Positions 1,860 through 57,291 of a stretch of 64,000 nt of DNA are shown piece after piece. Source of the DNA: Imbricaverruca yamaguchii (Eukaryota; Arthropoda; Thecostraca; Neoverrucidae); the NCBI GenBank assembly GCA_034440575.1, contig JAOTOL010000998.1, forward strand, positions 1 to 64,000, in the 5' to 3' direction. A program made the translations under genes and the position numbers. Position 1 is the stretch's first letter. Each line of letters opens with the position of its first letter. A model generated the notes under the pieces. That model was given only the letters and a program-made list of their open reading frames with translations, was not told where the DNA came from and searched no databases.

Positions 1860-2025
1860 CTGGAAACATTCGGAGCGGTGTTGCACGATAGTGACGAAAC
1901 ATCACTCGTTCAGCTGACGGTTGCAGTGGTGCTACATGCTGACAGGGTGGCAGCTGACAGTTGCTGTAGTGCTACACGATGACGGGGTGTCGGCTGACAA
2001 TCGAAGTTGTAGCTTCGCTGTATTG

Positions 2026-2047
2026 GTTGGTTATTTGGGCTTTCGGG
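2026..2047 (-). mobile_element. Hairpin micro-SINE, strongly 5'-truncated copy
   Basis: Only the tail part (GGTTGGTTATTTGGGCTTT on the plus strand) is present. It is flanked by a perfect 15-bp direct repeat, AGCTTCGCTGTATTG, at 2011-2025 and 2048-2062. This is a target-site duplication, so a 22-bp insert is well defined. Confidence 0.75.
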
Positions 2048-2415
2048 AGCTTCGCTGTATTGATGATGGCGTGAGATGGGTGTGGCTGTCGACACTGGAT
2101 ATTACAGGGATGCTGCAAGACAGGGAACCGACTGCATCCATCTTGTCTCCCTAGCCTGATGAAACCGTGTTAATGTCGGTTCCGGCACATGTGGGACTGA
2201 CATGGCAATCCAAGCAGTACAATGCGGACAAGACTAACGGGGGAACTGGCAGTGAGGATGAAAGGGACTGTTGAAGGTACGGGAAGATGTCAGGGATGCA
2301 TGCGTGAAAGGAATGTGGAATGTCATTTTGGAGGGGTGGGCGCTTCAGGGTGCAACGTGGTGGAACGATCGAATACAGAGAACCGACAACGGTAGCAACC
2401 AGCTCGGAGATGATG

Positions 2416-2477
2416 GTTGGTTGGCCATTTGGGCTTGGGGAGCATCGGCTGCTTCGGTCATACAGCGCCCATCTCGT
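2416..2477 (-). mobile_element. Hairpin micro-SINE copy
   Basis: Full-length copy with the GGTTGG tail, the GCATCGGCTGC / GGTCATACAGCGCCC hairpin arms and a 9-bp direct repeat GAGATGATG (2407-2415, 2478-2486). The first arm has lost the usual GGGCGC. Confidence 0.65.
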
Positions 2478-2613
2478 GAGATGATGACGCTGGAAAAAAA
2501 TTACCAGAGTTCAGAGGCGAGGGGCAACGAAGAGCATCATATGATGGACAATGGATTGAACTGAGTGTCGTGAAGGCGGTACGCAGTGCGTGAGTTGACA
2601 TGATGATGGGTCT

Positions 2614-2668
2614 TAGTCAGTTATTCGGGCTTTAGGGCGCTTCTACCAGAGTTGATCATTAGCGCCCA
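2614..2668 (-). mobile_element. Hairpin micro-SINE copy
   Basis: A 55-bp copy with TTATTCGGGCTTTAGGGCGC and the closing AGCGCCC. It is flanked by GATGATGGGTCT (2602-2613) and GATAATGGGTCT (2669-2680), a 12-bp target-site duplication with one mismatch. Confidence 0.75.
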
Positions 2669-2955
2669 GATAATGGGTCTCGAAAGCTGCTGGCGATGGT
2701 TAATCGAAATATCGCATGACGGGGTTAGCAAAAATGTACAACTGTGAGAAAGCTAGCGTACGGAAGATAAGAGTGGCAAGTGGCAAGAGCAAAGTGGCGG
2801 CACGTCACAACGACACACGGCACACGCACAAATGCAATTGGCGAGTGATGGGCTGCCGATGTGGAGAGGGTTGAACGCCTCTGCTGAGCCATCAGCAGCC
2901 GCCACGCCACGGCCACTCTAACCGACGGCGCCGCCATGCTCTCTTAGTTAATCGC

Positions 2956-3113
2956 GCGTCGATATTTCAGTGGCTAAGCTGAGCGTCCGGCACGCCAGAG
3001 GTACGGGGTTCGATTCCCCGCGATGCCCGCCCTTCCGACCAGTGCAGGCAGGCGACACCATATCGCCTCAGCTGCCGAGTGCATCGTAAAGCCACACCCC
3101 AATCCAGTATATC
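2956..3113 (+). mobile_element. tRNA-derived SINE, family D
   Basis: The head is tRNA-like: an A-box-like TTCAGTGGCTAAGCTGAG, then a T-arm GGGGTTCGATTCCCC followed by CGATGCC that can pair with the start. The body runs to ATCCAGTATATC. A 10-bp direct repeat AGTTAATCGC (2946-2955, 3114-3123) flanks it, which supports retroposition and argues against a free tRNA gene. Confidence 0.65.
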
Positions 3114-3330
3114 AGTTAATCGCACATTATCACATGGTGCGACGTCGGACGACTACGGAGGCTTCCAAAAAGCGCCAGATCAGAGGATACGCACCGACCG
3201 GAACCGGAAACGAGCTGACTGGTCCGGGCGGAGCCGCGCAGACCCCGTCTTAACGGTGCGGTGGCGATATAAATATCCTGTGTTCCCGCCAACCGCTCTC
3301 ACACCGACGGGGGCGGGAGTATGATGATGA

Positions 3331-3365
3331 ATTGGAGTTTAGGGGCGCTTCGACTGCCAGGAGCT
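3331..3365 (-). mobile_element. Hairpin micro-SINE, truncated copy with ATC-type tail
   Basis: Contains AATTGGAGTTTAGGGGCGC and CGACTGCCA but no second arm. Its tail reads ATTCATCATCAT in the sense direction instead of AACCAACC. It abuts the copy at 3380-3437, so the flanks are not independent. Confidence 0.5.
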
Positions 3366-3379
3366 GGAGTGTGACATGA

Positions 3380-3437
3380 TTGGTTGGTTATTTGAGTTTT
3401 AGGGCTCATCGACCAGGTTTGGTCATTTAGCGGCCAG
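3380..3437 (-). mobile_element. Hairpin micro-SINE copy
   Basis: Full-length copy with the TTGGTTATTTGAG tail and a GACC/GGTC inner stem. Flanks are GGAGTGTGACATGA (3366-3379) and GGAGTATGACACGA (3438-3451), a 14-bp duplication with two differences. Confidence 0.7.
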
Positions 3438-3730
3438 GGAGTATGACACGAACACATTGGGACGGGCAGCGTTCAGAGGACGTTGGTCCGTCTGGTCGTG
3501 GCTGATGCTGGTGATGCTGCATGTGATGCTGCAGGGAGAGTGGATCGGTGATGCCGCCACGTCATAGTGGATCTGTGCTCAGGGCGCGCCGACTACTCTG
3601 GCCAGTCTGCACCCGTCAGTCTGGACAGGGTCGCCGTCACAGAGCTGAGGTGTGGAACGTGGCTCAGGACTCGTTGTTTGTGTATTGGATGATTCACGAC
3701 GCACTTGAATCATCGCCTATTTTAGGCGAT

Positions 3731-55520: not shown

Positions 55521-55672
55521 TTCGTGTGGCATGCACGCAGTCTCACGCATGCTCCGCTCAGGTCTCCCACGCGTTACGCGCTAGTTTTGCGCGGAACAAG
55601 GTGTCTCGCCGATGGGTTAAAAAAGCACGCATACACAGACAAGGAATGACCTTTACCTTGTGGAGGACCTAC

Positions 55673-55726
55673 GATGACGAATTGGGGTTTAGGGGCGCGT
55701 CGACTACCAGGGTCATTTTGCGCGCA
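55673..55726 (-). mobile_element. Hairpin micro-SINE copy, ATC-type tail, clean target-site duplication
   Basis: GATGACGAATTGGGGTTTAG, GGGCGCGTCGACTACCAGGG, TCATTTTGCGCGCA. A perfect 14-bp repeat TGTGGAGGACCTAC lies at 55659-55672 and 55727-55740. The tail (sense AATTCGTCATC) differs from the AACCAACC tails. Confidence 0.85.
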
Positions 55727-55879
55727 TGTGGAGGACCTACAATTAAAAACTTATTCTAAAAGCATGCTAGCGTGCGATGGCGACGCTTTTTATGGAAGTA
55801 TAAACATGTCAGACCTTCGATGGTAGATAGAGTACCTAGTGCTTCACGGAACACAAACGCGGGGCTGAAGACAAAGTAG

Positions 55880-56070
55880 GGAGAGTACGTGTTGCAGGGA
55901 CAGGTGAATGATATGGATGTTGAGATGAGATGGGCATTGGAATGGGAGCGTACGAATGGAAGGACGAGTGAGGCACTCCTAGTCTGGCCCCTCGCCGGAT
56001 CACCGATGGACTGGGATTCTGGGTCCTTAGGGCACTCAATCCTCCCACCGCGTAAAGGTGGTGCCTCGTC
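55880..56070. repeat. Unnamed repeat, copy 1 (partner 56335-56530)
   Basis: Shares with 56335-56530 the words TTGGAATGG(G/A)AGCGTACG, ATGGAAGGACGAGTGAGGCA, GGGCACTCAATCC and AAAGGTGGTGCCTCGTCG. It is roughly 80% similar by eye and in the same orientation. Confidence 0.8.
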
Positions 56071-56334
56071 GAGGGGCCATTTCCGTGAGGCAGACTGGCA
56101 ATAAGACATCGACAGCTCCAAAATGAAGAAAACCAGCGGCGATGATTACTGCACCGTTTCCCCACGTTTTTGGATGTGGTTCGAGGGAAAACAAAAATAT
56201 AATGAAATACGCCAAAGCGCAAAGGCATCAGTTGGTTATTTCGAACACTCATAGGTGGGGTGACACGGGAAAATATTGGCTGACATTCTTTTCGCGGGAA
56301 GTTGCCCTGCCTGCTCATAGTAGGGATAGTTGGT

Positions 56335-56530
56335 GTTGTAGGACCAGATGAAGGACACGGATGTTGGCATGATATTGGGATTGGAATGGAAGCGTACGGA
56401 TGGAAGGACGAGTGAGGCACTCTTGGTCTCACCCCTCTCCGGTATGATGGTCTTTGGGGCACTCAATCCCCCCCCCTCACCACCACCACCACGAAAAGGT
56501 GGTGCCTCGTCGGGGGAGCATGGTGAAGAT
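56335..56530. repeat. Unnamed repeat, copy 2
   Basis: Direct-repeat partner of 55880-56070, with a C8 run and a CACCACCACCAC insertion. It adjoins the 55-bp exon-end repeats of TOP2. Confidence 0.8.
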
Positions 56531-56735
56531 ATAGCGCGGGATGGCCAAGTGCACAGTGCCACTGACCTGAGCATGGCGAAGATGCAGTGCGGGCTGGCCA
56601 AGTGCATAGTGCCACTCTCACCTGAGCATGGTGAAGATGTAGCGCGGGCTGGCCGAGTGCATAGTGCCACTCTCACCTGAGCATGGTGAAGATGTAGCGC
56701 GGGCTGGCCGAGTGCATAGTGCCACTCTCACCTGA
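56512..56735 (-). repeat. 55-bp tandem repeat made from a TOP2 exon end and its splice donor
   Basis: The word CTGAGCATGGTGAAGATGTA recurs at 56622, 56677 and 56732, with weaker copies at 56567 and about 56512. On the minus strand each unit reads TACATCTTCACCATGCTCAG|GTGAGAG, the last codons of the exon at 56732-56979 plus its donor. Confidence 0.92.
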
Positions 56736-56979
56736 GCATGGTGAAGATGTAGCGCGTACTGGCCGAGTCCTTGCCGCCCTGCAGGCGCGTGCCGAACTGG
56801 CCGACGGGCAGCAGCAGGTTCACGTTGTTGCTGCCGACGAAGTTCTGCGCCATGTTGACGATGGTCGAGCTGAGCGACATCCCGCCGTGGTGGTAGGCGG
56901 ACATCTCGGCTACCGAGCCCACCAGCTGGGCCACCTTCATCTCGCGCTTGTCGTTCCGCTTCAGGCAGGTAAACAGCAC
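56732..56979 (-). CDS. TOP2: DNA topoisomerase II, catalytic-tyrosine exon
   Basis: The 248-bp exon starts after GCGCAG with VLFTCLKRNDKREMKVAQLV, continues GSVAEMSAYHHGGMSLSSTI and VNMAQNFVGSNNVNLLLPVG, and ends QFGTRLQGGKDSASTRYIFT, then ML and two bases before GTGAGAG. The Y of RYIF is the expected nucleophile that links covalently to the 5' DNA end. The winged-helix block AEMSAYHHG is intact. STRY replaces the more usual SPRY. Start phase 0 fits the exon ending GQRK and the end fits 49981-50212. The donor is followed by tandem copies of the exon's last part. Confidence 0.95.
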
Positions 56980-57121
56980 CTGCGCGATGGGACGAGCGTC
57001 ACCGGACGAGTCAACCAGAGGCGAAATACACAGTCGTAGCAACGCTTCGTAGAAAAGGGGAAAAGGGAACGACGAAGAAGAGAAAACGAATTAGACAGGA
57101 TAACGATAGGTAGATGCATGC

Positions 57122-57178
57122 ACTATATATATATATATATATATATATATATATATATATATATACATGTATATATTA
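57122..57178. repeat. (TA)n microsatellite
   Basis: About 45 bp of pure TA followed by ACATGTATATATT. Confidence 0.9.
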
Positions 57179-57239
57179 CTAGGACAAGAAACCAGTGTAA
57201 AATAATTGACCGTATCATGCATGAGACAGGTTTGATTGA

Positions 57240-57291
57240 TCGATTATTTGGGCTTAGGGGCGCATCAACTGCTACTGATGTTGTTGCGCCC
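57240..57291 (-). mobile_element. Hairpin micro-SINE copy
   Basis: CGATTATTTGGGCTTAGGGG, CGCATCAACTGCTACTGATG, TTGTTGCGCCCA. Full length, no clear flanking repeat. Confidence 0.6.

Follow-up and report, generated by a model that had tools for sequence, protein, structure and literature searches.

Introduction

Recognition of 3' hairpins of this kind by the ORF2 proteins of long interspersed elements (LINEs) has been shown experimentally (PMC4176376), and the proteins of stringent-type LINEs are described as binding a 3' stem-loop that is required for retrotransposition (PMC4176376; PMC5135761). UnaL2 of the eel and ZfL2-1 and ZfL2-2 of zebrafish have a 3' stem-loop in common with their partner short interspersed elements (SINEs), with short repeats in UnaL2 (PMC4176376, PMC5135761, PMC3747384). 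Here we describe solo copies of a hairpin and its tail, a mini element of about 53 bp, in 64,000 nucleotides from the thecostracan Imbricaverruca yamaguchii (assembly GCA_034440575.1, contig JAOTOL010000998.1, positions 1 to 64,000 of the forward strand; this whole stretch is the window below) and elsewhere in the same assembly.

LINE copies that lack their 5' part are truncated at various positions and are 100 to 1,000 bp long in one account (PMC3747384), and a SINE is expected to have a polymerase III (Pol III) promoter or a head derived from a small RNA (PMC7983390). A first-pass annotation of the window, made from the letters alone, had proposed a family of about 17 hairpin elements of about 55 bp resembling a minimal SINE. 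Units this short are probably overlooked by most repeat annotation. Searches of open-access papers turned up no account of LINE tails made of the hairpin alone, nor of an equally small SINE; none of the 12 papers listed, of 13 containing a string of the element sequence, was, judged by title, about repeats, and the exact element patterns had no match in viral and prokaryote contigs.

Results

Abundance and target-site duplications

An nhmmer profile seeded from seven copies and run through four iteration rounds gave 21 matches with E <=0.0062 in the window, 19 of them hairpin elements and two the tails of a longer tRNA-derived SINE, termed SINE-1 (5122 and 59757). Every one of the 17 positions given by the first-pass annotation bears the element, and two more copies were found, at 9808-9859 and 52873-52921, both on the plus strand; 16 of the 19 are on the minus strand. 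One reversed and 20 dinucleotide-shuffled windows yielded no match of 12 bits or more (best 8.2), and a chance origin of the copies is dismissed on this ground.

Target-site duplications (TSDs) in the window were scored with +1 for a match and -2 for a mismatch, with a threshold of 8, and compared with 20,000 places chosen at random away from tandem arrays and with 342 mispaired flanks of the same geometry. Thirteen of the 19 copies reach that score, against 2.4% of the random places and 2.6% of the mispaired flanks; a previous test with a different geometry gave 12 of 19 at score 8. The four duplications quoted at the time are all present (15/15 at 2011/2048, for instance), the one at 49854 extending to 17/18. 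Two of the thirteen (2026 and 50597) are no more than 30 bp away from a tandem array, and excluding both leaves 11 of 17 (P ~1.7e-14).

We searched the host assembly (1,430 contigs, 767,457,503 bases) with a pattern of 22 bases drawn from the 3' half of the element; with at most three mismatches allowed, it matches at 20,827 places, and its reversal at none. In an unselected sample of 20 stretches of 10 kb at round coordinates (200 kb), the mini profile gave 18 matches and none in the reversed sequence; these are five SINE-1 tails, three long LINE copies and 10 copies with no recognised upstream part. From the last figure we estimate a genome total of about 38,000 (95% range 18,000 to 71,000). 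The window, with 19 copies in 64 kb, is richer than the sample.

For the remaining analyses 109 mini-type copies were pooled: the 19 of the window, 13 of the sample and 77 at loci located by the pattern. Sixty of these loci (L029-L088) come from 100 places listed of the 20,827, being the 50 exact matches that remained there and, of the first 11 matches with one mismatch, all but C119:603; L001-L008 are further pattern loci. At a score of at least 9, a TSD was found in 56 of the 107 testable copies (L043:76 and L046:641 being too close to the locus end), compared with 1.07% of 840 mispaired flanks. This excludes the outcome named beforehand as damaging, namely duplications no commoner than in controls. 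Setting aside two long LINE copies (L005 and L045) leaves 54 hairpin-only copies, with a median TSD of 14 bp and a length of 9 to 18 in 52 of the 54. In one locus (L008) a 60-nt copy splits a SINE-1, with a perfect 14-nt repeat of SINE-1 sequence on either side, and since the copy interrupts a known element, its empty site is directly known. Movement of the ~55-bp unit by retroposition, with TSDs, is strongly supported.

The short inverted repeat visible in the unit could also suggest a DNA transposon of the miniature inverted-repeat transposable element (MITE) type, with GGGCGC and GCGCCC as its termini. Against this, an asymmetric tail follows the right arm inside the TSD, TSD length varies over the range just given, and copies are cut at the 5' end and have the sequence of a LINE 3' end; a MITE is dismissed for these reasons, and we leave it next to no probability.

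At four loci (L058, L080, L081 and L082) a mini copy stands at the same place in a repeat with at least four copies, the upstream sequence being 91-97% identical, and was therefore carried along by another element.

Longer elements with the same tail

Sequence comparison identifies the mini element as the 3' end of longer elements, whose hairpins are of several types. In three of the 13 mini-type matches of the sample (L012, L018 and L026), shared sequence encoding the C-terminus of ORF2 lies just before the hairpin. L018 and L026 are 92.7% identical over 372 bp and L012 and L018 82.9% over 925 bp, the shared LINE stretches of the sample spanning 83-93% identity and 371-925 bp, and an RVT_1 domain lies further upstream in L012 (E 1.1e-13). 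Used as a query, the ORF2 C-terminus detected LINE coding sequence upstream and in the same orientation at L005, L006, L033, L045, L069 and L078 (E 1.7e-29 to 1.8e-6). Nine of the 109 copies, with ORF2 homology within 600 nt upstream or within the shorter sequence available, were accordingly counted as long; L048, where a weak match (E 1e-4) lies far upstream and the TSD is at the hairpin, was not. The same query had no match in the 64-kb window. The parent LINE contains what we take to be RNase H-like and zinc-knuckle motifs, with no such match in Pfam, and is probably not of the L2 kind. Pieces of the ORF2 C-terminus also occur in the sample at L011:5640-5885 and L025:6646-7056, with no adjoining mini-type hairpin among the profile matches.

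A second kind of parent is represented by L087 and L088, which are 98% identical over 408 nt upstream, with no ORF2 match, and share only 21 of 100 bases downstream; being alike on one side and unrelated on the other, they are two insertions of another longer element. The upstream part is unrecognised in the other 98 of the 109 copies, a number from which parts with neither coding homology nor a second copy among the loci would not be subtracted. The first-pass annotation had allowed that its copies might be the 3' end of a longer element with its 5' part present at most loci: they are such a 3' end, and 11 of 109 copies, not most, are long. The proposed minimal SINE thus survives as a retroposed unit of ~55 bp with TSDs, but not as an unrelated SINE.

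When 26 minis were compared with the tails of long elements, a stem-loop stretch of 29 nt was identical in seven, five of them with L088 (L083, L084, L086, L066 and L073) and two with the LINE copy L045 (L057 and L061). The other 19 are 76-97% identical to the nearest long tail, so that many hairpin types have no matching long element among those compared.

SINE-1, a tRNA-derived SINE of about 157 bp, ends in a related hairpin region followed by an AACC tail. Identity between mini tails and those of SINE-1 is 44 to 76%, and derivation of the minis from the SINE-1 tail is dismissed because profiles of minis and of SINE-1 tell the two apart. Of 15 SINE-1 tails (three in the window, six in the sample, six at pattern loci), 14 are joined to a body; the sole detached one, at L002, had a weak body match in an earlier search.

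Upstream ends of the insertions

Insertions have a firm outer limit at the hairpin. We number positions on the element model so that the region of 0 is the helix base, negative values lying upstream and outside and positive values inside, and 5' ends were sought within 36 nt upstream of the hairpin. Among the 54 hairpin-only TSD copies, ends fall at -1 to 3 in 27, at 4 to 8 in 11, at 13 to 31 in 11 and at -6 to -3 in five, and none lies beyond -6. The bin from -1 to 3, chosen after the data had been seen, has P ~3e-17 against a uniform spread over 70 nt. Ends at -1 to 3 are found in six of the 11 copies from the window, in 20 of the 37 from the tail-selected loci and in one of the six from the unselected sample, so the pile-up at the helix base comes mainly from the first two sources. 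The 13 window copies with a TSD end at 0 to 2 in eight cases, at 15, 20, 25 and 31 in four, and 6 nt outside in one. When the region from 66 to 430 nt upstream was examined at 68 loci, a score of at least 10 came up once, in L008, where repeated SINE-1 copies confuse the search.

Copies ending at position 0 begin with A in six of seven cases, and GTTA precedes the hairpin in seven of nine LINE copies; the A thus agrees with the LINE sequence, which indicates that templates often reach one base past the helix. A minor second cluster of ends lies at positions 6-7, in the 5' strand of the stem (for example GCTATATG and GCTGCATG), at unrelated target sites (L057, L061, L071, L027:9602, L018:8954 and L012:7375).

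Such ends could come from abortive copying, in which the RNA of a full LINE or other longer element is the template and the tethered reverse transcriptase drops off or jumps just past the hairpin. The identity of seven of 26 mini stem-loops with those of long elements agrees with this, as do the A and GTTA just described, seven LINE-like bases at L027:8803 and the scattered ends of the unselected sample (-6, 0, 6, 7, 7, 25), which fit a loose stop. Yet the stem would be gone once its 3' strand had been copied, so that no structural block would be expected at its 5' base; SINE-1, whose tail is related, yields no clear hairpin-only copy; and none of the 54 TSD copies ends 7-36 nt upstream, the 66-430 nt beyond adding only the L008 score. 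We hold abortive copying to be rather unlikely, though it is the main rival.

Folding and promoter searches

Folding of 13 hairpins from the window and of two SINE-1 tails gave z from +0.28 to -3.88, with values below -1.3 in 12 of the 15. The weakest are 55681 (z -0.98), the 41846 tail (z +0.02) and 2420 (z +0.28); the last two do not form the expected stem, and several minimum-energy folds deviate in the upper stem. A 17-row alignment has 84.5% of its cells paired, compared with 35-44% when the partner is slid, and RNAalifold on the hairpin alignment returned four pairs only. Neither pairing nor covariation in the alignment rises above shuffles. On these predictions the structure is likely real, albeit with no proof from covariation. 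Tails after the terminal stem-loop are repeats of AACC, AACT or CCA.

The first-pass annotation saw neither of the tRNA promoter boxes. For the B box this holds, none (GGTTCGANTCC, at most one mismatch) being present in the 19 window elements; the A box was not scanned. ARAGORN found no tRNA in the window, but it likewise missed the tRNA-derived SINE-1. Rfam at the gathering score gave no family in the window, and a search relaxed to E 5 over 49400-51500 only, a section with few copies, gave nothing relevant; a known RNA family as the source is dismissed for want of a relevant Rfam match. The B-box scan and Rfam thus found no promoter of the element's own, which places it outside the usual definition of a SINE.

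This bears on a further reading, that the 53-nt unit is an independent minimal SINE with its own lineage and source genes, transcribed from an external promoter, its tail merely shared with LINEs. The defined outer boundary would suit it, as would the excess of copies with no recognised upstream part over long ones (98 against 11 of 109) and near-identical copies at unrelated sites (L083, L084, L086). A single lineage, however, would not predict that the minis come in several hairpin types or that two of these match the hairpins of long elements exactly, and the absence of a B box and of a relevant Rfam match, within the scopes just given, also speaks against it; we consider it improbable.

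Individual copies and other features of the window

On the minus strand, solo hairpin-tail copies with a TSD lie at 2420..2471 (about 6 extra 5' nt; 40.9 bits; TSD CATCATCTC; folding no better than shuffles), 2616..2668 (full length; 42.1 bits; TSD 11/12), 3383..3436 (45.9 bits; 10/11), 39198..39245 (39.8 bits; 10/10), 49461..49504 (26.8 bits; 11/11), 50597..50649 (59.1 bits; 13/14, less telling inside a 30-bp tandem array) and 55681..55726 (36.9 bits; 14/14), the last having the hairpin type of the LINE copy L026, with 89% identity to its tail over 47 nt. No TSD was found for the minus-strand copies at 3731..3783 (50.7 bits), 37732..37784 (40.9 bits), 51386..51438 (53.5 bits) and 57241..57292 (42.7 bits). 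Three copies are on the plus strand: 37560..37612 (53.3 bits), with at most a decayed TSD of score 5, and the two that are new relative to the first-pass annotation, 9808..9859 (47.6 bits; TSD AAAACTTG) and 52873..52921 (35.5 bits; 13/15).

Five minus-strand copies are cut at the 5' end. That at 2026..2047, cut inside the element, is a 22-bp tail only (23.7 bits; 15/15 TSD at 2011-2025 / 2048-2062), and the others are 3331..3360 (22.4 bits; weak TSD TCAYACTCC, score 6), 23274..23306 (16.3 bits; 11/11), 49870..49902 (28.4 bits; 17/18) and 53543..53569 (12.8 bits; 9/9). Copies 3383 and 3331 are possibly nested, the younger apparently placed in the TSD of the older, which scores only 6.

SINE-1 itself occurs at 41746..41903 on the plus strand (nhmmer; TSD ACACTCACGAGATG, 14/14) and, on the minus strand, at 5118..5276 (93.6 bits) and 59753..59912 (96.5 bits), both with a TSD score of only 6, the latter being the duplicate of the former. 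The tail near 41849, which belongs to the first of these, reached only 8.5 bits (E 0.14) in the window profile, and a covariance model recovers it, but with that tail in its training set. The other two copies belong to a 2.3-kb stretch present twice, at 4298-6586 and 58934-61223, with 99.3% identity and also containing a topoisomerase II fragment (TOPRIM_C, 5457-6125 and 60093-60761, the domain scan having been run on the first).

A second tRNA-like SINE of ~165-180 bp is present at 52143-52322, 4654-4835, 6332-6508, 60969-61145 and 59290-59470; it has a near B box at 52256, a different hairpin region and again a AACCAACC tail. A third tRNA-like repeat of ~340 bp, with an A/T-rich tail, occupies 39961-40301 and 4080-4421 (90% identity), and a tRNA-like stretch at 2955-3030 has an exact B box, GGTTCGATTCC, at 3007. 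The 5' part of a different LINE, with an ORF1 containing a GDSL esterase domain and an ORF2 endonuclease, lies at 62191-64000 and runs past the window end; no relatives of it were found in viral contigs. P-element-like transposase pieces (TNP-like RNase H and THAP domains) are on the minus strand at 7436-10726, and very long tandem arrays at 25439-26215, 35509-37384, 43535-46064 and 53853-55521 consist of (AG)n of 388 units and minisatellites of 54, 36 and 38 bp.

Discussion

The account that we somewhat favour is retroposition by LINE machinery of short RNAs that consist of the recognition hairpin and its tail, the template having been shortened beforehand. A LINE protein would bind the 3' hairpin, nick the target and copy the RNA from its tail; the usual template would be a short RNA with its 5' end near the helix base before copying begins, for example what 5'-to-3' trimming or cleavage of a LINE transcript leaves at the protein-bound hairpin; and the reverse transcriptase would simply run off its end, copies that start deeper in the hairpin reflecting incomplete reverse transcription of the same short template. 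Copying that begins at the tail would account for the TSDs, for the common 3' end and for copies truncated within the hairpin, the outer limit at the hairpin being the unusual feature, and a short template is preferred to drop-off because SINE-1 tails remain attached in 14 of 15 cases.

Several points weigh against this account. We infer the short RNA template from the ends of the genomic copies, and an enzyme working on a long RNA and halting shortly beyond the hairpin would leave very similar ends. SINE-1, which may use another LINE, counts against drop-off only if it shares the enzyme. The ends in the unselected sample are looser, one of six being at the helix base, and the 68 pattern loci, picked by a tail match with at most one mismatch, favour young copies. 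L005, set aside as a long LINE copy, has a TSD with its end at -19, the LINE-like bases TCTGTTA precede the hairpin at L027:8803, and 51 of the 107 testable copies have no strong TSD. Covariation in the 17-row alignment does not rise above shuffles, of which 110 of 500 reach the paired percentage and 158 of 500 the covariation score.

The solo hairpin tails suggest that the hairpin alone suffices for copying into the genome. They look like an experiment set up by nature on the smallest RNA that the LINE machinery is able to mobilise, in which hairpin and tail appear sufficient in vivo, and the outer limit at the hairpin makes testable a question that is usually hidden, namely whether LINE 5' truncation reflects drop-off of the enzyme or an RNA that is already shortened. 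A broader proposal, which we put forward only tentatively, is that a LINE clade routinely retroposes the decay or cleavage remnants of its own transcripts, with a protein-protected hairpin and tail of ~53 nt as the commonest unit, so that the smallest natural retroposon would also be a genomic record of RNA 5' ends.

Set beside known systems, the minis resemble the tails of stringent-type LINEs such as UnaL2, ZfL2-1 and ZfL2-2 in having a terminal stem-loop followed by short repeats. As described for UnaL2 and ZfL2, however, the tail ends a longer mobile RNA, whereas here the tail alone makes up most of the copies found. With 5'-truncated LINE copies the minis share the same 3' end, TSDs and the signature of target-primed reverse transcription; unlike them, they end at or inside the terminal hairpin, at ~53 bp, with no intermediate length found, although within the hairpin their ends do scatter. 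Like tRNA-derived SINEs, SINE-1 included, they are non-coding and have TSDs and a LINE-related tail, but they have no tRNA-like head or B box and are about a third of the length of SINE-1. Of the features that define a SINE they therefore show the tail of a partner LINE and the TSDs, and not the Pol III or small-RNA head (by B box and Rfam, the A box not being scanned). The solo tails are a variation on LINE-mediated retroposition and not a new class of element.

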